A stretch of DNA of 61,233 nucleotides from Deltaproteobacteria bacterium (GTDB lineage Bacteria; Desulfobacterota; Dissulfuribacteria; Dissulfuribacterales; QOAL01), in the NCBI GenBank assembly GCA_027028245.1, contig JALVJO010000142.1, forward strand, positions 1-61,233, given 5' to 3'. Position 1 is the first letter of the stretch. Each line of letters opens with the position of its first letter. The notes under the pieces were generated by a model. It made no database searches, was not told the DNA's origin, and was given only the letters and a program-made list of their open reading frames with translations. This document shows positions 3,314 through 56,721 of this stretch, in pieces. The position numbers and the translations under genes were made by a program.

Positions 3314-4478
3314 TGCGGCATCCCTCGCTCACCCTGGAAAGATTGGATGATACAACCTTCTCCCCCGGGGATAGACCGCTCAGGACCGTGACATATATTT
3401 CAGCTCCGCCCTGTGCGGCAACATCAGGAAGCAGGGGCAGAAAACCCTTTTGGGTCTTTCGCCAGGGCTTTCCGGCCTTTATAATCCTCCAGCGGGCAGT
3501 GCCCGATTCATCCAGCACATAGACTCCGCTTATTCCGCCGCGTTCTACCACGACCCCCTTGGGAAGTATTACTGCCTTCCTGGTTGAAACCTTGAGAAAG
3601 ATCCTTCCGAACAGCCCGCTCTTGAGATCTGCCGAATCCAGATCAGCAAGTACCGTAAAAGTGTGGGTCTGCGGCCTTGATGAGCGTTGAACGTGCACAA
3701 CCGGAACCTCGAGGTCAAGGCCTGCCGCCGGCACGGACACGGTAACCATGTCGCCCGCCTTGACAGCAGACTGCAGCGATTCATCCATGTCTGCTTCAAA
3801 CCAGAATCCGCTTCCCTTGCCGTCAAGGCTTATCAGTGGCACACCGGGATTCACATAGGTACCCGGGTCAACATTCCTGGCCGCTATCCAGCCATCCATT
3901 GGAGCCTTGATCTTGACATAGGAAAGCTGATTCTTGGCCTCCTGAAGCTGGGCGCTGATCCTCTTAATGTTGGATTTGATGGCGACCACCTGGTTCTTCA
4001 GGGCAAGATACTCGGTACGCGCCCTGTCAAACTCATCCTTGGTGGCCGATTCCTCCTTGTAGAGGCGGCTGAATCTGTTGAAGTTTATCTTGGAATATTC
4101 ATATCTTGCAGAGACAGCTTCCAGTTCTGCCCTGGCTGCCCTTTCAGCAGAAAAGAGGGCATTGACGCGCGCCCTCACATCGGTGTCATCGACCAGCACG
4201 AGGAGGTCTCCCTTCCTGACCATGTCACCAATCTGTACCGGCACTTCCCTCACATAACCCGGCATCTTTGCAGCAAGGGTGATGGATACCTTGGAGCGCA
4301 CCCGGCCAGGGAAATATCTGACCTTGGGAAGCTCCTCGGCCCTGACTTCAAGCACATCCGCCTTGACACTCTGACCTATTGTAACCTCTTCGGTCTTCCT
4401 CTCACTGCTGCATGAGAACAGCAGGAAAAGGCAAAAGCAGCATGCCGTCCATTTCAAATTGAATCGAGAATCTCGCAT
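3306..4478 (-). CDS. RND efflux periplasmic adaptor (membrane fusion protein), lipoprotein
   Basis: This 390-residue adaptor should bridge the pump and the outer-membrane channel. The N-terminus has a hydrophobic segment ending in a lipobox-like LLFSC, so it is probably lipidated at about Cys23. Next comes a barrel-sandwich half (around 'GDLLVLVDDTDV'), a long alpha-helical hairpin (about residues 95-190), the second half ('IKAPMDGWIAARNVDPG') and beta-barrel and membrane-proximal domains. This order is typical of the HlyD/AcrA family. It lies 9 bp downstream of the TolC-like gene and overlaps the pump gene by 8 bp, indicating one transcript. Confidence 0.92.
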   Translation of the reverse strand: MRDSRFNLKWTACCFCLFLLFSCSSERKTEEVTIGQSVKADVLEVRAEELPKVRYFPGRVRSKVSITLAAKMPGYVREVPVQIGDMVRKGDLLVLVDDTDVRARVNALFSAERAARAELEAVSARYEYSKINFNRFSRLYKEESATKDEFDRARTEYLALKNQVVAIKSNIKRISAQLQEAKNQLSYVKIKAPMDGWIAARNVDPGTYVNPGVPLISLDGKGSGFWFEADMDESLQSAVKAGDMVTVSVPAAGLDLEVPVVHVQRSSRPQTHTFTVLADLDSADLKSGLFGRIFLKVSTRKAVILPKGVVVERGGISGVYVLDESGTARWRIIKAGKPWRKTQKGFLPLLPDVAAQGGAEIYVTVLSGLSPGEKVVSSNLSRVSEGCRIE

Positions 4479-10889: not shown

Positions 10890-11228
<339 letters not shown>

Positions 11229-11306
11229 GACAACAAATCTGACAGCAAGCAAGCCAAGAATTTCAAACTCTTATACTTATTTTACGTGATTCCAGGAGGG
11301 ATAAAA

Positions 11307-12116
11307 ATGACAAACATGAACAGGATTACAGCTTTCACACTTTTATTAACTACCGCACTTGCTATAGCCATGCCGCTTTACGCAGAGGAAGAAAGGCCTT
11401 CGGCCGATCTTTCAGTGAGCCTTCTTAGTGCTTACATTTGGCGCGGCCAGCAGTTAAGCAAAAACAGCCTGGTGATACAACCATCGGCCACCTTTTCCTA
11501 TCAGGGCTTTTCTGCAAACATCTGGGCCAACTACGACACGGATCTTTACAAGGACATCAAGGAACTGGACAACCTCACTGAAACAGATTACACGCTGACC
11601 TACGGGCATGATTTCGGCCCTGCCTCTATACAAGCAGGCTATATTTACTACGCCCTTGACCAGGCGGAGGACAGCCAGGAATTTTTTGCCTCCGCCACCT
11701 TGAACACACTGCTGTCACCGACAATTACCCTCTACAGGGAATTTGCCCATTACCCCAGCACATACCTTACCCTTGAGGTTTCCCACAGCATTGCCCTACC
11801 CCGAGGCTTGAGCCTTGACATGGGACTGCTGGGAAGCGCCCTCTTCTCGGATGACTCGGCGGCATATCCTGACCCAGATGATCCAGGAGACGATTACTCC
11901 GGGCTTCACCACGGAAAGGCCTCTGTATCCATGACAATTCCGTTCACGTCGTTCCTGCATGACCCTGCTGCCCGCTATTTTACAATCACACCGGAAGTGA
12001 ACTGGGTATTTCCCATAAGCGGTGACGGATCAAAGGATATGGCAGAAAGGGCGCTTGGCAACAGCCGGGATAATAACTTTGTTTACGGAGGGGCAACAGT
12101 CAGCTTTTCATTTTAA
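11307..12116 (+). CDS. Outer-membrane beta-barrel protein, TorF-like putative porin
   Basis: A 269-residue protein with a signal peptide (residues about 1-25, ending PLYAEEE) and repeated amphipathic strands ending in an aromatic-rich C-terminus (YGGATVSFSF), typical of outer-membrane barrels. 'SAYIWRGQQLSKNSLVIQP' resembles the TorF/Gcw_chp family. Start chosen at ATG 11307 because AGGAGGG lies six bases upstream; a GTG at 11286 lies before that site. It lies 78 bp after glnK and may be nitrogen-controlled, for example passing nitrogenous solutes (inference). Confidence 0.82.
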   Translation: MTNMNRITAFTLLLTTALAIAMPLYAEEERPSADLSVSLLSAYIWRGQQLSKNSLVIQPSATFSYQGFSANIWANYDTDLYKDIKELDNLTETDYTLTYGHDFGPASIQAGYIYYALDQAEDSQEFFASATLNTLLSPTITLYREFAHYPSTYLTLEVSHSIALPRGLSLDMGLLGSALFSDDSAAYPDPDDPGDDYSGLHHGKASVSMTIPFTSFLHDPAARYFTITPEVNWVFPISGDGSKDMAERALGNSRDNNFVYGGATVSFSF

Positions 12117-12147
12117 AAGGGGCGCCGGCTGTCGAAGGCATGGGAAA

Positions 12148-12177
12148 AGGCCTGCCAGGCGGCAGGCCTGATTTTTT
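12148..12177 (+). terminator. Rho-independent terminator of the amtB operon
   Basis: AGGCCTGCC / GGCAGGCCT, a perfect 9-bp stem with AGGC loop, followed by GATTTTTT. It lies 31 bp after the porin stop. Confidence 0.9.
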
Positions 12178-12178
12178 G

Positions 12179-12292
12179 TAAGCGCTCACAGGCTACCGCA
12201 TCTTGCGGGATCAGACGCTTAAAGTACAGGGAGTACGACTGCGCGCCCACCGCCTTGCATCTGCGCACCCTGCAAGCGCTTAAAGAATGGAA
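12179..12292 (-). repeat. Dispersed hairpin repeat, copy 3 (inverted, variant ends)
   Basis: Read on the minus strand it aligns with copies 1, 2 and 4 through the block CGTCTGATCCCGCAAGATGC and a preceding TGTACTT-AAG segment. Its terminal arms are TAAGCGCTT and AAGCGCTTA-like rather than GTATCTGC/GCAGATAC, yet still pair. It lacks the leader block of the other copies and abuts the amtB operon terminator. Confidence 0.8.
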
Positions 12293-12323
12293 AATATATA
12301 CTAAAACTCATTGAAACCTGTGA

Positions 12324-12773
12324 TCAGTTACGATTTTTAAGCAGGGGGATTTGCGGTAAACCCGACAGAACATCTTGCAGGCATGAATCTGGAGTATGCC
12401 CAGTTTGTCCCCCATTTGTGGGGTGTTTCTTGAAAGGTTTCACCACAAGGAAGCCAACTTCAGCCGCAATAAAGCCGCTGAGATTGGCGATGTCTTTATT
12501 CGAAAAGGATTTGAAATCTGCACAGCGGCTTGATGAACCTTGAAAGAAATGCGCCGATCCTTGCCATTCCTCGTCCAGGGACAAACTGGGAATGCTCCCC
12601 ATGGATCTGGCCGAGATGTACCTGCCAAAGTAATCCTTGGCCGGACTGCTGTAAAAAAAATCGAAGAGATGACAGCTGAACTGCCGTGCCCTGTCACAGT
12701 CGTAAAACCCTAACAGGTTCCTTGGAGACCTGTCTAAAACTCGACCAAGAGATAATTTTTTTAGGAAGCTCAT
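12324..12773 (-). CDS. Doubtful open reading frame after pgeF
   Basis: A 149-codon frame whose ATG overlaps the pgeF stop (ATGA), which would suit translational coupling. No domain, signal peptide or membrane segment was recognised, and no separate ribosome site is evident. It contains several Cys and His residues (for example 'KKHPTNGGQTGHTPDSC') without a clear metal motif. No better frame covers 12300-12770, so this may be a real lineage-specific gene or decayed sequence. Confidence 0.3.
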   Translation of the reverse strand: MSFLKKLSLGRVLDRSPRNLLGFYDCDRARQFSCHLFDFFYSSPAKDYFGRYISARSMGSIPSLSLDEEWQGSAHFFQGSSSRCADFKSFSNKDIANLSGFIAAEVGFLVVKPFKKHPTNGGQTGHTPDSCLQDVLSGLPQIPLLKNRN

Positions 12774-26802: not shown

Positions 26803-27471
26803 TCAACTTTTCTTCCTTCGCCTAATCACTAGCAGGCCGATAAGGCTCGAACCCAGAAGCCACGCTGCCCCGGGAATGGGAACGACCTGGGAATCGGCAT
26901 GTGCGTGACCGTTAGCCGTGGCATCGGAGAAGTTCCAAAGCGGTATGTCGCTGCCTATGTCCTGGGCAATTGTGTCAAAGTAGTAGCCGTAAAAATCCCT
27001 TAGGTTTCCGGTATCGTCGTCTTGCAACCACCCGACCACTGTTTCCTCTGATTCATAGAAAATAGTGTCCCACGTATCTCCAGTGTTAATCCCAGGGCCG
27101 CCGACACAGACACTGTCACCTTGACCGTCCCCATCCTCGTCATATACGCCCATGATCGTGTAGGACTCGCCGTCATACCAGTCCGGATTATCATTAACAA
27201 GAAAGGAAAAGGTCCCGGTATCGCCACCCGCCACGTCATCGGCCTCTGATAAATAAATTGAAACTGGCATCGCCGATGAATTAAGGGAGTAGATCACCCA
27301 GATATCACTAAGGGATGTATTTGGCGAGATGGTGCCGGACACCTCAATGGTGGCCTCTGCATTATCCACTGCAGGGCCGCTGCCCCAGCCTGCAACGGTC
27401 AGGCCCACTGCCAGGCAAGCCGCCTGAAGCACACACCTTGCCTTTTTGAAACGTCGTCTCTTTTTCCTCAT
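26803..27471 (-). CDS. Secreted protein with VPxPGA-type (PEP-CTERM-like) C-terminal sorting tail
   Basis: A 222-residue protein. A basic N-terminus (KKRRRFKKARC) is followed by a hydrophobic signal segment ending near VDNAEAT. The body is acidic and Gly/Asp-rich ('YDEDGDGQGDS'), consistent with an extracellular beta domain. The tail reads VPIPGAAWLLGSSLIGLL followed by VIRRRKKS: recognition motif, membrane helix and basic cluster, as in VPLPA/PEP-CTERM proteins processed by exosortase-type enzymes. GGAGGTGG precedes the ATG. It is 64 bp downstream of a second tail-bearing gene. No exosortase lies in the window. Confidence 0.85.
   Translation of the reverse strand: MRKKRRRFKKARCVLQAACLAVGLTVAGWGSGPAVDNAEATIEVSGTISPNTSLSDIWVIYSLNSSAMPVSIYLSEADDVAGGDTGTFSFLVNDNPDWYDGESYTIMGVYDEDGDGQGDSVCVGGPGINTGDTWDTIFYESEETVVGWLQDDDTGNLRDFYGYYFDTIAQDIGSDIPLWNFSDATANGHAHADSQVVPIPGAAWLLGSSLIGLLVIRRRKKS
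26848..26888. repeat. 41-bp tail-coding repeat, copy A
   Basis: Matches 27578-27618 at 40 of 41 positions, same orientation. It encodes the VVPIPGA(A/V)WLLGS part of the sorting tail in both genes, whose other parts are unlike. Confidence 0.9.
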
Positions 27472-27535: not shown

Positions 27536-28330
27536 TTATCTTTTCCGTCTCCGGACCACTACCAAACCAAGAAGCCCCGAACCCAGAAGCCACACTGCCC
27601 CGGGAATGGGAACGACCTCTGCATGTGAAATATTTGTGATAGTAAAGCTGTTGTAAAAATCAGAATCCAATTTAACAGCTTGACCTGCATGTGAAGGGTC
27701 ATTTAGCCAGGTTGCTCCAGTACCTTGGAAAATCCAAAGGGCAAACTTTGTCCCTGATGACAATTCGAGAGCTATGGAATCGGTTTTGTTTATGGTTTGA
27801 GACTCCCCAGCATGTAATATGATGTAGTCAAGATCGTAACTGCCAAGGGGATTCTGCCAATACCAAGCATCTTCCCCTGGATCGTAAATTGCGTAATTCC
27901 AAGAAAGTTGATACCATAAATCCATGTCCCCAGGGCCGCTTTCAAAGGACATGGTACCTGTCCAGGCCACATCAAACTGCGGGTTATCACCAGTTGCAAT
28001 GAATTGCTGAACGAACTCGGATCCAGCATTGGTTGCCGGCTGCAGCCCTCCCTCATTATTAAATGAATCATCGATATGATACTGGGCCTTGAGAGTGTAT
28101 CCGCTGGCACTGGCTTCGGACCAGTTATTGCCAGTTCCAAGATAACCAGAACTAAAATCGTAACCATATGTCGGGCCGGCCACATAATCGGGATCCATCA
28201 TTGTCCTGGAGTAGTACGGCTGGTCCAAGGGAGGGGGCGCAAAGACTGCTTCAACCTGTTTGAAGCTGAATAACAGACAAATAATTATGACCACCGCTAC
28301 GAAAGATGCCGAACTTAATGTCTTTTTCAT
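27536..28330 (-). CDS. Secreted protein with VPxPGA-type (PEP-CTERM-like) C-terminal sorting tail
   Basis: A 264-residue protein with a signal peptide (residues about 1-29, ending KQVEAVFAPP) and an aromatic, Asp/Gly-rich beta domain ('WYQLSWNYAIYDPGEDAWYW'). It ends VVPIPGAVWLLGSGLLGLV followed by VVRRRKR, a complete sorting tail. AGGAGGA precedes the ATG. It is the first gene of a two-gene unit with the 26803 gene. Function beyond surface display is not readable. Confidence 0.85.
   Translation of the reverse strand: MKKTLSSASFVAVVIIICLLFSFKQVEAVFAPPPLDQPYYSRTMMDPDYVAGPTYGYDFSSGYLGTGNNWSEASASGYTLKAQYHIDDSFNNEGGLQPATNAGSEFVQQFIATGDNPQFDVAWTGTMSFESGPGDMDLWYQLSWNYAIYDPGEDAWYWQNPLGSYDLDYIILHAGESQTINKTDSIALELSSGTKFALWIFQGTGATWLNDPSHAGQAVKLDSDFYNSFTITNISHAEVVPIPGAVWLLGSGLLGLVVVRRRKR
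27578..27618. repeat. 41-bp tail-coding repeat, copy B
   Basis: Partner of 26848-26888, one mismatch, at the 3' end of the 27536 gene. Confidence 0.9.
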
Positions 28331-28783: not shown

Positions 28784-28823
28784 AAGACGGCCGGCTGCCT
28801 GTACCAGGCAATCCGGCCGTCTT
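28784..28823 (-). terminator. Rho-independent terminator of the putative non-coding unit
   Basis: AAGACGGCCGG / CCGGCCGTCTT, an 11-bp stem extended by inner CTGCCT/AGGCA pairing. On the minus strand it is followed by TTTATTC after the stem. It lies about 240 nt from the predicted start of the sigma-54 transcript. Confidence 0.75.
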
Positions 28824-29028
28824 GGAGCTGATTGAATGGCGCCGCCGGACAAGGCGGATGAAAAGTCAAGACCCGTGCTTTTCCGACTCCGCCTCACAAC
28901 GGGTGTGGCTTTATCAGGTACTTTAGGATATGATATCATTTCTTAAAACATTCAATCAAATGAAATAAAAATTTTCTGGCAGCTACCGACCATTCAATTG
29001 GTCCGCCTAGCCCCATTCCTATTTCCCG
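28784..29028 (-). ncRNA. Candidate structured small RNA (sigma-54 driven)
   Basis: The predicted transcript runs from about 29028 to the terminator and has no good reading frame. Within 28854-28909 (minus strand) a hairpin CACA-CCCGT-TGTG is followed by a longer hairpin: outer arms AGGCGGA/TCCGCCT, inner arms GAAAAG/CTTTTC, 12-nt loop holding ACGGGT. The first loop with its closing A (ACCCGT) complements ACGGGT, so a kissing or pseudoknot contact is possible. No known riboswitch class was recognised with confidence. It could also be a long leader of the 28330 gene if the terminator is leaky. Confidence 0.45.
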
Positions 29029-29039
29029 AATTTTTATTT

Positions 29040-29055
29040 AGCAATTATTCTGCCA
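29040..29055 (-). promoter_or_regulatory. Sigma-54-like promoter, leftward
   Basis: On the minus strand TGGCAG-AATAA-TTGCT matches the -24/-12 consensus in all key positions (GG and GC with correct spacing). Three regulator boxes lie 70 bp and more upstream. Confidence 0.65.
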
Positions 29056-29124
29056 AATAATAATAATTTTATTACCAATAAAGTGGGGTAAATCCAATAA
29101 AAAGAGAACCCCAAAATCCAAAAC

Positions 29125-29179
29125 GGAAAAAAGTTTCCGCAAAAAGAAAATATTTTCCCATATTAGGAAAATATTTTCC
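29125..29179. promoter_or_regulatory. Three phased GGAAAA-NN-TTTTCC boxes
   Basis: Boxes at 29125-29138 (one mismatch), 29145-29158 (one mismatch) and 29166-29179 (perfect). Start-to-start spacing is 20 and 21 bp, about two helical turns, as for activator oligomers on one DNA face. The same motif and distance to a -24/-12 element recur near 39.4 kb. Confidence 0.7.
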
Positions 29180-29321
29180 CTTCCCTGCGGCATAGCGCAC
29201 AGAACAAGCATCGGCTTGGACAAATTTTTCCGTTATGCTGCCCGCCTGATCCTTTTGTCGTCTGACTCTTCTAAACCAGCCACAGCCGGCGTCACATGTC
29301 CGCCAACCATCCATCCCGTAC

Positions 29322-38492: not shown

Positions 38493-39158
38493 TTATGACT
38501 GTTTCTTTATTTTCCTGCGCATGGTGCCGGCAAGACCGATAAGACCAACGCCGAAAAGGAGGATGGTGGCGGGTTCAGGGACTGGGGCAATACCACCATC
38601 GAATGAGCCTGATTGACCCTGTGCCGTACTTGTAATTGTTCCTACTATTTTCAGTGTATACTTTGAAGTATCATCAGGGGTAACGAGAGTTTGCAAACTT
38701 TCAGAAAAAGCACCTGTAGATGGACCAAAGTCAGCTAAAAGTTTACCATCTAAATATGTTTGAAAAGTGACATCCGGACCATTAGCATATCCCCCGAAAG
38801 AAGAAGTTAACCCTTTTAGGCTCGGATTCCATGCGTAAAACGTATCATATAAGGTAAAGGTTAATGTACCGGAGCCTGCCAGTGAAGTCGTTGCTCCAGT
38901 CAAATGCATCTCAGGTTCGTCACTTTCTCCGATCGCTGGCCAGGAACTTCCCAAAGAAATTGTGACATCCCAGAAACCAATGGTTCCCCAAAAGCCGACT
39001 ATTCCATCCTGATCATTATCATCAACAGTTATTGTATTGGTGCCGTCACTTAACACTAAAGTTGGATATGCCCACCCTTGGCTCACCATACCAGCCAGCA
39101 CCAAAACCAGACATCCAATCATGGATGCCGCAAATTTTGCAAAAATCGCTTTTTTCAT
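38493..39158 (-). CDS. PEP-CTERM sorting domain protein
   Basis: A 221-residue secreted protein. A signal peptide (residues 1-30, ending SQGWAYP) precedes a beta-rich domain with 'VDDNDQDGIVGFWG' and 'LAGSGTLTFTLYDTF'. The C-terminus is canonical PEP-CTERM: PVPEPATILLFGVGLIGLAG followed by TMRRKIKKQS, for recognition and cleavage by exosortase. AGGAGG precedes the ATG. It has its own terminator and a sigma-54-like promoter with regulator boxes. Processing enzymes must lie elsewhere in the genome. Confidence 0.92.
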   Translation of the reverse strand: MKKAIFAKFAASMIGCLVLVLAGMVSQGWAYPTLVLSDGTNTITVDDNDQDGIVGFWGTIGFWDVTISLGSSWPAIGESDEPEMHLTGATTSLAGSGTLTFTLYDTFYAWNPSLKGLTSSFGGYANGPDVTFQTYLDGKLLADFGPSTGAFSESLQTLVTPDDTSKYTLKIVGTITSTAQGQSGSFDGGIAPVPEPATILLFGVGLIGLAGTMRRKIKKQS

Positions 39159-39345: not shown

Positions 39346-39361
39346 TGCACATAAGATGCCA
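39346..39361 (-). promoter_or_regulatory. Sigma-54-like promoter of the PEP-CTERM gene
   Basis: On the minus strand TGGCAT-CTTAT-GTGCA, two departures from consensus but correct GG/GC spacing. It lies 188 bp upstream of the start codon, giving a leader of about 175 nt. Regulator boxes begin 71 bp upstream. Confidence 0.55.
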
Positions 39362-39431: not shown

Positions 39432-39480
39432 AGAAAAAATTTTCCCTTAATGGAAAACCTTTTCCGTGAAAGGAATTTCC
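39432..39480. promoter_or_regulatory. Phased GGAAAA-NN-TTTTCC boxes upstream of the PEP-CTERM gene
   Basis: Boxes at 39432-39445 (one mismatch) and 39452-39465 (perfect), 20 bp apart, with a weaker GGAATTTCC at 39472-39480. Motif, spacing and 71-bp distance to the -24/-12 element repeat the arrangement at 29125-29179. Confidence 0.7.
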
Positions 39481-54686: not shown

Positions 54687-55637
54687 TCAGCCGTTTTTCA
54701 TGACCTCCCCTGCCATGACTGTTTCCCTGTGCATGCCTGCAAGATAAGCGGCCCCGCCCAGGAGGGCGGCGGTGGCCTGAACGGCAAAAAATGCCAGGCT
54801 TACAGTAATTGCCTTTTCCGGCGGCACATGCTTGAGCCCCAGAAAATACACGAAGCCACCCTCCCTGATACCCAGCCCGCTTAGACTTATGGGCAGTATG
54901 GTAAGTATTGCCACAAGAGGGAAGGCGGCAAAATAGAATTCAGGCCGGCAGGTAAGCCCCAGGCCGTATGCCAGAAGATATACAGCATACATTCCGCAAA
55001 ACTGCAGCACAAGTGATAGCAAAAAGGCAACCAGCAGGCTGGTAGGTCTTTCCCAGTACACCATTAAAAAGGAGAGACGCTGGGAAAAGACAGGGAACAC
55101 CCTCCTTAGAATCATCCTTACAACAGGCATGAAAAAGACGCCAAGGCTCATGCCGACGGCACTTGCCAGCAGGATCATCCTGAATCTTTCGGGCAGTATC
55201 TCCGGGGCCGAAAGGGCAGCACCTGCCCCCAGTACGAACATGGCCCAAAGCCCTATGAGCCTGTCGCAAAATATGCTGTATGTGGCCTTCAGCCTGCTGT
55301 TCCCACCGCGGGAAAGGAAGAACGCCTTCAGCACGTCTCCTCCTATGGCAGAAGGGAGAAACAGGTTAAAAAACATGCCCACGAAATAAAATTTGAGGTA
55401 TGTAAGAAATCGGCCGCCAAAATCCAGGGCCCTGGCCAGAACGAACCAGCGGATACTGCTGATCAACTGGGATGCCAGGTATAAAAAAAAGGCACAAAGC
55501 CACGAAGCAGGAGGTATGGCCCCAAAGGAGGAAAACACCTCCCTGACATCCACCCTTTGAAAGAGCCATGCCAGCAGGGTGATGCTGACAGCCGCCCTCA
55601 GGAAGATCTTCAAGGATGATTTCGACCCTGCTTTCAA
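54687..55637 (-). CDS. Flippase-like membrane protein (UPF0104 / lysylphosphatidylglycerol synthase TM family)
   Basis: A 316-residue protein with seven to eight membrane helices. 'LISSIRWFVLARALDF', 'FFNLFLPSAIGGDVLKAFFLS' and 'LPISLSGLGIREGGFVYFL' match the UPF0104/AglD family. The start codon is TTG at 55637, supported by GGAGG five bases upstream. Between a GT2 and a GT39 enzyme it may help move the lipid-linked sugar across the membrane (inference). Confidence 0.88.
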   Translation of the reverse strand: MKAGSKSSLKIFLRAAVSITLLAWLFQRVDVREVFSSFGAIPPASWLCAFFLYLASQLISSIRWFVLARALDFGGRFLTYLKFYFVGMFFNLFLPSAIGGDVLKAFFLSRGGNSRLKATYSIFCDRLIGLWAMFVLGAGAALSAPEILPERFRMILLASAVGMSLGVFFMPVVRMILRRVFPVFSQRLSFLMVYWERPTSLLVAFLLSLVLQFCGMYAVYLLAYGLGLTCRPEFYFAAFPLVAILTILPISLSGLGIREGGFVYFLGLKHVPPEKAITVSLAFFAVQATAALLGGAAYLAGMHRETVMAGEVMKNG

Positions 55638-55749
55638 GATGCCTCCGGACAGATGTCCGCATTAAGCTCAGACAAGTGATGCTGCGCCAGCCGGCAGGAA
55701 TTCATATCAAAGGACCGCAGGCCTTGAGGATTCGTCCCAGGGTACATGA

Positions 55750-56721
55750 TCATTGAATGATCTCTCTGATGGAATAAATGTGTTTTCCACTGGCCTCGTA
55801 GTAGGTACGTATTATGAGTTCTGCCAGAAGACCTATGCCAGAAAGGATCAGGCCGGATATCACAAGCAGGACCCCCAGGATCAACAGCGGCCTGTTACCT
55901 ATGTCCTGACCCAGGAAGAGCTTCAGAAAAGTCAGGTAGAACTCCACTATTAGGCCGGCAGCAAGCATGAGCCCACCTGTCAGGCCGAAAAACTGGAGAG
56001 GCCTTGTTGCAAACTTCTGGAAAAACAGCATGAGAAGCAGATCCAGCATGACCCTGTAGGTACGGCCGATTCCGTACTTGCTCCTGCCCTTTCGTCTTGG
56101 ATGGTGACGTACCACCACTTCTGCGTATCTCGCCCCCTGAAGGCTTGCAAGCACCGGTATGAATCTGTGCAGCTCGCCGTAAAGGAGAAGATTCTTGGCA
56201 ACTTCCCGCCTGTAAGCCTTGAGGGAACAACCATAATCATGGAGCCGGATGCCAGTGGTTCTGCCTATGAGCCAGTTGGCCATCCTTGAGGGAAGGGTCC
56301 TTGATACAAATGCGTCCTTCCTGTCCTTTCTCCATCCGCTAACGATATCAAAACCCTGGCCAATCTTTTCAAGCAGTCGCGGTATGTCCCGGGGATCGTT
56401 CTGGAGATCTCCGTCCATGGATACCACTATTTCCCCCTGTGCAAGGTCAAAGCCGGCAGTCATGGCCGCACTCTGCCCAAAATTTCTCCTGAAAATGACG
56501 GCCCTGAGCTCTGGATACCGTGCCTTTTCTTCCTTCAGGACCCGGGCAGTATGGTCGGTGCTTCCGTCATCTATGACTATTACCTCAAAGGATTTTCCCA
56601 GTTCCTTCATGGTGAAAAATATCCTTTCCAGGAGCTCAGGTATATTCTCAGACTCGTTGAACACGGGAATTACCACTGATACATAGGGCAGGGAATCGGA
56701 AGGGTTTTGATACTTGTTCAT
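55750..56721 (-). CDS. GT2-family polyprenyl-phosphate glycosyltransferase (DPM/ArnC-like)
   Basis: A 323-residue protein: an N-terminal GT-A domain with 'SVVIPVFNESENIPELLERI', 'EVIVIDDGSTDHTARVL' and the metal-binding 'VVSMDGDLQNDPRDIPRLLE', then two membrane helices from about residue 235. Such enzymes load a sugar onto undecaprenyl phosphate on the cytoplasmic face. It starts two bases after mreB, so the envelope sugar genes appear to be in the mreB transcript. Confidence 0.93.
   Translation of the reverse strand: MNKYQNPSDSLPYVSVVIPVFNESENIPELLERIFFTMKELGKSFEVIVIDDGSTDHTARVLKEEKARYPELRAVIFRRNFGQSAAMTAGFDLAQGEIVVSMDGDLQNDPRDIPRLLEKIGQGFDIVSGWRKDRKDAFVSRTLPSRMANWLIGRTTGIRLHDYGCSLKAYRREVAKNLLLYGELHRFIPVLASLQGARYAEVVVRHHPRRKGRSKYGIGRTYRVMLDLLLMLFFQKFATRPLQFFGLTGGLMLAAGLIVEFYLTFLKLFLGQDIGNRPLLILGVLLVISGLILSGIGLLAELIIRTYYEASGKHIYSIREIIQ

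Follow-up and report, generated by a model that had tools for sequence, protein, structure and literature searches.

Phased palindromic boxes upstream of sigma-54-type promoters in a deltaproteobacterial order most likely answer to a receiver-less activator encoded beside a PilZ gene and not to PrsR

Three palindromic boxes lie upstream of a -24/-12 element on the minus strand near 29 kb in the 61,233-nucleotide stretch of DNA analysed here (the window, which is contig C142 of a host genome of 2.86 Mb in 205 contigs), and the question raised by this locus is which regulatory protein they serve. An earlier note on this DNA read the boxes as sites of a sigma-54 activator, pointed to PrsR as a possible binder and linked them to PEP-CTERM genes. 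The three phased boxes were found as described, at 29125, 29145 and 29166 with spacings of 20 and 21 bp (Table 1). The recurrence of motif, phasing and distance at 39 kb, where two boxes are spaced by 20 bp, was likewise borne out. The distances themselves needed correction: the spacing to the promoter is fixed, but measures 69 bp instead of the claimed 70 bp at the 29-kb promoter and 70 bp instead of the claimed 71 bp at the 39-kb promoter. Both promoters have GG at -24 and GC at -12 with the correct spacing, as does the consensus of the 38 promoters described below. Transcription from the 29-kb promoter would be expected to start near 29029.

Table 1. Features of the two box promoters, their genes and the PilZ locus. 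Positions are those of the window unless another contig is named.
Feature	Position	Strand	Remarks
Box 1, palindromic, GGAAAAAAGTTTCC	29125-29138	none	nearest to the promoter; 1 mismatch
Box 2, AGAAAATATTTTCC	29145-29158	none	1 mismatch to GGAAAA-NN-TTTTCC
Box 3, GGAAAATATTTTCC	29166-29179	none	exact GGAAAA-NN-TTTTCC
Possible fourth box, GGACAAATTTTTCC	29218-29231	none	1 mismatch; 52 bp beyond box 3
Sigma-54 -24/-12 element, TGGCAGAATAATTGC	29041-29055	minus	1 mismatch; 69 bp to box 1
Second-promoter box, AGAAAAAATTTTCC	39432-39445	none	motif scan of the window
Second-promoter box, GGAAAACCTTTTCC	39452-39465	none	exact match
Second-promoter -24/-12 element, TGGCATCTTATGTGC	39347-39361	minus	70 bp to the nearest box
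264-aa exported-type protein, VPLPA-CTERM tail	27536-28330	minus	TIGR03370, 27.3 bits (cut-off 25.35)
222-aa protein, similar tail	26803-27471	minus	TIGR03370, 24.7 bits, slightly below the cut-off
221-aa PEP-CTERM protein	38493-39158	minus	PF07589, TIGR02595; second-promoter target
Probable c-di-GMP-I-GGC aptamer	28803-28918	minus	RF03167, 41.9 bits (gathering score 59)
Intrinsic terminator hairpin, AAGACGGCCGG arms, then T-run	28784-28823	minus	overlaps the aptamer
PilZ protein with kinase-like tail	C11 (host), 11051-12496		adjoins the activator gene; orthologs in relatives

Counted singly, boxes or -24/-12 matches are weak evidence, near chance level: the window holds nine boxes with at most two mismatches versus 5.3 expected, and 72 -24/-12 matches versus 69 expected. 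The combination of boxes and promoter occurs twice in the window and in none of 300 local shuffles. Since the pattern used for this comparison was composed after both sites had already been seen, the controls in other genomes weigh more. In the host genome, boxes with at most one mismatch cluster as pairs with a spacing of about 20 bp at further loci, and nine promoters have phased boxes with the -24/-12 element at 68-70 bp from the nearest box, those on contigs C133 and C138 being near-duplicates. A scan from a single box to the promoter, in which the distance was left free between 58 and 86 bp, gave seven matches in the host compared to none in the reversed control. These promoters point to a regulon across the host genome. 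At the promoter of the PilZ gene on contig C11 the boxes have decayed and the geometry is kept, with 69 bp from TGGAGCCTTTTTTGC to GGAAAAAGATTTGC as counted by hand on the sequence. An outlier is found on contig C116 (2920-2955), where a box pair lies merely 38 bp from a -24/-12 match and no ORF of at least 80 aa starts within 900 bp on the promoter strand.

A survey of 46 draft genomes from the order returned the full box/promoter pattern 40 times, and its reversed control once. The double-box pattern is present in 21 of these genomes, and 23 of them form the pattern-bearing set referred to below. A search around box clusters that accepted any distance from 15 to 135 bp placed 30 of its 37 -24/-12 matches at 68-72 bp. 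Alignment of 38 distinct promoters gave the box motif GGAAAANNTTTTCC, a box spacing of 19-22 bp (mode 20) and a gap of 67-72 bp (mode 70). Orthologous promoters in the order-wide set are mutually dependent, and the claim therefore rests on the host set, the differing target families and the controls together. The idea that the boxes are chance palindromes of AT-rich DNA and the -24/-12 matches mere background, which would suit the single counts in the window, is rejected as extremely improbable, as the fixed-distance combination is absent in shuffles, nearly absent in reversed controls (the order-wide scan, 40 versus 1, already contradicts the idea) and recurs before orthologous genes in other genera; the earlier note had rightly argued against coincidence. 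A consistent distance to the promoter is characteristic of upstream activator sites, and this pattern in host and order strongly supports the reading of the boxes as sigma-54 activator sites. We conclude that the phased boxes are very probably activator-binding sites at 68-72 bp from sigma-54 promoters across the order. In genome G014 (contig C68, around 1600-1633), one box pair is flanked by two -24/-12 elements that point away from each other, at 68 and 70 bp, and may serve two divergent sigma-54 promoters. A looser single-box scan of the phylum gave scattered single matches in 78 of 395 genomes, which are mostly background and were excluded from the evidence.

Contig C11 of the host encodes the most likely binder; a scan with TIGR02915 identified its gene there, located directly after two boxes. 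Its 357-aa product contains a Sigma54_activat domain (PF00158, 238 bits) and a Fis-type HTH_8 domain (40 bits), but no receiver. The GAFTGA loop is intact and invariant in 12 orthologs, and the HTH core ISYKA is conserved among the orthologs, so that the protein has the AAA+ domain, GAFTGA loop and Fis-type HTH of an enhancer-binding protein. It scores over none of the NCBIfam cut-offs listed. About 25 genomes from the order have orthologs with 57-83% identity; a scan of named genomes with the activator alignment returned relatives of 41-55% identity only, none of them clearly an ortholog. Of the 23 pattern-bearing genomes, 21 have the activator locus. Conversely, 21 of 27 locus-bearing genomes show the box/promoter pattern, versus 2 of 19 that lack the locus (Fisher p 6e-6, which is overstated because the genomes are related). 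Genome G006 was scored as locus-bearing because its PilZ gene and box extend to the end of a contig, just where the activator gene should start. Six genomes (G007, G012, G015, G016, G027, and G042) have the locus without a full pattern match, and two (G018 and G026) show the pattern although no activator was detected in them.

Boxes were also identified upstream of the activator gene itself in G000 (-132, -48), G003 (-135, -52), and G015 (-117, -35), as well as in G013, G001 (-52), and G005; for most orthologs none was found in this region. Given the host box density, at least 5 matches in 24 upstream regions correspond to P ~2e-8 if relatedness is ignored. In G000, G003, and G015 the two boxes are 82-84 bp apart and flank a TTGACT-like sequence, an arrangement which suggests that the activator may regulate its own gene. 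The gene order at the locus is activator, PilZ gene and, on the opposite strand, a gene for a stand-alone receiver. In many genomes a box pair is located immediately 3' of the activator gene, ahead of the PilZ gene, at 68-72 bp from a -24/-12 element. In ten aligned PilZ proteins the RxxxR and [DN]xSxxG motifs are largely retained, and the position of the H-box histidine in the kinase-like tail is occupied by Glu (LLEDI..PLSA), indicating that the protein is likely a pseudokinase. Another sigma-54 activator of the host might bind the boxes instead: about 16 host proteins match the sigma-54 activator part of the TIGR02915 model, and a PrsR-like response regulator that scores 440-490 bits in many genomes is widespread in the family. 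However, boxes at its own promoter together with a box-driven neighbour were seen only for the C11 activator (without a promoter-by-promoter survey of the rest), and we regard such a binder as decidedly unlikely.

PrsR, the binder suggested in the earlier note, deserves closer comparison with the boxes. The motif described upstream of PEP-CTERM genes consists of a 17-nt motif 1 ending in TTTACA, which is sometimes repeated, a spacer of 62.8 nt (SD 10.6) and a sigma-54 motif 2, and it lies in long intergenic regions; further regulators and motifs were expected by the same authors (Haft et al., 2006; PMC1569441). The boxes could be a lineage-specific form of this PEP-CTERM box through which PrsR activates sorted-protein genes. 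The layout resembles motif 1, about 63 nt and motif 2, the host encodes a PrsR over the TIGR02915 cut-off on contig C58, many targets are PEP-CTERM-type genes, and PrsR is over the cut-off in 9 of the 46 genomes, 8 of which show the box pattern. However, a Haft/PrsR regulon would have PrsR wherever the motif occurs, whereas 15 of the 23 pattern-bearing genomes have no PrsR over this cut-off, which is strict (G013, at 485.8 bits, may miss it narrowly); they include G001, G004, G006, G008, G009, G011, and G014, which are 98-100% complete. The box promoters carry GGAAAANNTTTTCC and not a motif ending in TTTACA, and the boxes track the C11 locus. Moreover, the PEP-CTERM gene on contig C58, which also encodes PrsR, has instead a Haft-type TTTACA site at 61 bp from its -24/-12 element (3818-3899); this was the only convincing PEP-CTERM promoter when the host genome was scanned for TTTACA. 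PrsR was therefore rejected as the binder; it probably does not bind the boxes, and the reading as a variant PEP-CTERM box is unlikely. Most likely the boxes answer to the little-studied C11 activator beside the PilZ gene.

The first genes after the promoters were chosen by ORF position. For the 29-kb promoter the first convincing gene, preceded by a leader of about 700 nt, encodes the 264-aa protein, which as a TIGR03370 member belongs to the VPLPA-CTERM proteins. The 222-aa gene follows on the same strand. Targets in several genera of the order encode PEP-CTERM/VPLPA-CTERM-type proteins; other targets are an exported protein that looks multihaem-like from CxxCH motifs spotted by eye, the PilZ protein (PF07238, a domain of the c-di-GMP-binding type), one DUF3135 protein, one DUF533 protein and a conserved, roughly 94-aa protein without a Pfam match. 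The proposed link to sorting-tail genes is thus strongly supported, as box sites often precede PEP-CTERM genes, but it is not exclusive, the PilZ, DUF3135, DUF533 and small-protein genes being targets likewise and non-sorted proteins belonging to the regulon. Elsewhere in the window, at 54687-56718 on the minus strand, flippase-like and undecaprenyl-phosphate glycosyltransferase-like genes lie near an MreB gene and are possibly envelope polysaccharide genes.

Between the 29-kb promoter and its gene, cmscan identified a probable c-di-GMP-I-GGC riboswitch. As in this family (RF03167), the match spans the full length of the covariance model and a terminator follows directly; unlike thresholded members, the window copy stays below the Rfam gathering score. 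Other weak Rfam matches in the window were dismissed as chance. The 5' arm of the terminator, a strong one, overlaps the last helix of the aptamer, an overlap with which an ON switch would fit, and the riboswitch may thus control the terminator as a c-di-GMP ON switch. The minimum-energy fold of the leader alone is the terminator and not the aptamer. A near-identical riboswitch and terminator (RNA 56 bits) occurs in G017, of another genus (sequence L259:1011-1126), in divergent orientation to a box promoter and before a gene for an exported protein. A second host copy, on contig C133 (1157-1275), passes the gathering score and precedes VPLPA-type genes with VPIPGAVWLLGSG tails. It has no box promoter upstream, so that riboswitch and boxes are joined in just one host promoter.

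From the boxes, their spacing, fixed distance and conservation, the gene content and the co-occurrence with the activator locus, all of which were read from the sequence, we infer binding, activation, transcription, sigma-54 use, autoregulation and c-di-GMP control as follows. The receiver-less C11 activator would bind the phased boxes upstream of sigma-54 promoters, act at its own promoter through the boxes around it, and drive the adjacent PilZ pseudokinase gene together with genes for surface proteins of the exosortase-sorted type and for several small cytoplasmic proteins. The transcript from the 29-kb promoter would pass the probable c-di-GMP riboswitch and the terminator before reaching the VPLPA-CTERM gene. 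We put the probability at roughly 80% that the boxes are sites of a sigma-54 enhancer-binding protein at 68-72 bp from -24/-12 elements, with the C11 activator as the most likely binder driving a sorted-protein regulon. The PilZ pseudokinase may in turn gate the activator. More tentatively, and with considerable doubt on our part, the gated activator and the riboswitch at some targets might form an AND gate in which both respond to the same signal, c-di-GMP, in the control of sorted surface proteins.

PspF is a receiver-less enhancer-binding protein which consists of an AAA+ domain and a Fis-type HTH without an N-terminal regulatory domain; a partner protein restrains it, and it acts as a repressor of its own gene. 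The C11 activator has the same domain content and likewise no receiver, but it adjoins a PilZ pseudokinase gene and not psp genes, and at 271.5 bits it stays below the PspF equivalog cut-off of 443.55. With the PEP-CTERM box and PrsK-PrsR the present system shares an activator motif, a spacer and a -24/-12 element before PEP-CTERM genes, as well as long intergenic regions. It differs from the Haft box in that copies of GGAAAANNTTTTCC follow each other at 19-22 bp and leave a gap of 67-72 bp to the promoter, and from PrsK-PrsR in that the activator is most likely receiver-less and the targets include non-sorted proteins. In a study of Aquincola tertiaricarbonis, the PEP-CTERM gene pepA was shown to be RpoN1-dependent, with a mapped start and a conserved -24/-12 motif, and was linked to PrsK/PrsR and prsT (PMC9850573). 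The genes described here resemble pepA as PEP-CTERM genes with a -24/-12 motif and differ in the phased GGAAAA boxes, the PilZ partner and the riboswitch, none of which is mentioned in the passages of that study compared here (PMC9850573).

Since 2006, PrsK/PrsR has been credited with the sigma-54 control of proteobacterial PEP-CTERM genes. The boxes point to a second candidate system, with a specific activator gene, a motif derived from 38 promoters and a fixed geometry for which other lineages can be searched, and they suggest that sorted surface proteins are linked to c-di-GMP.
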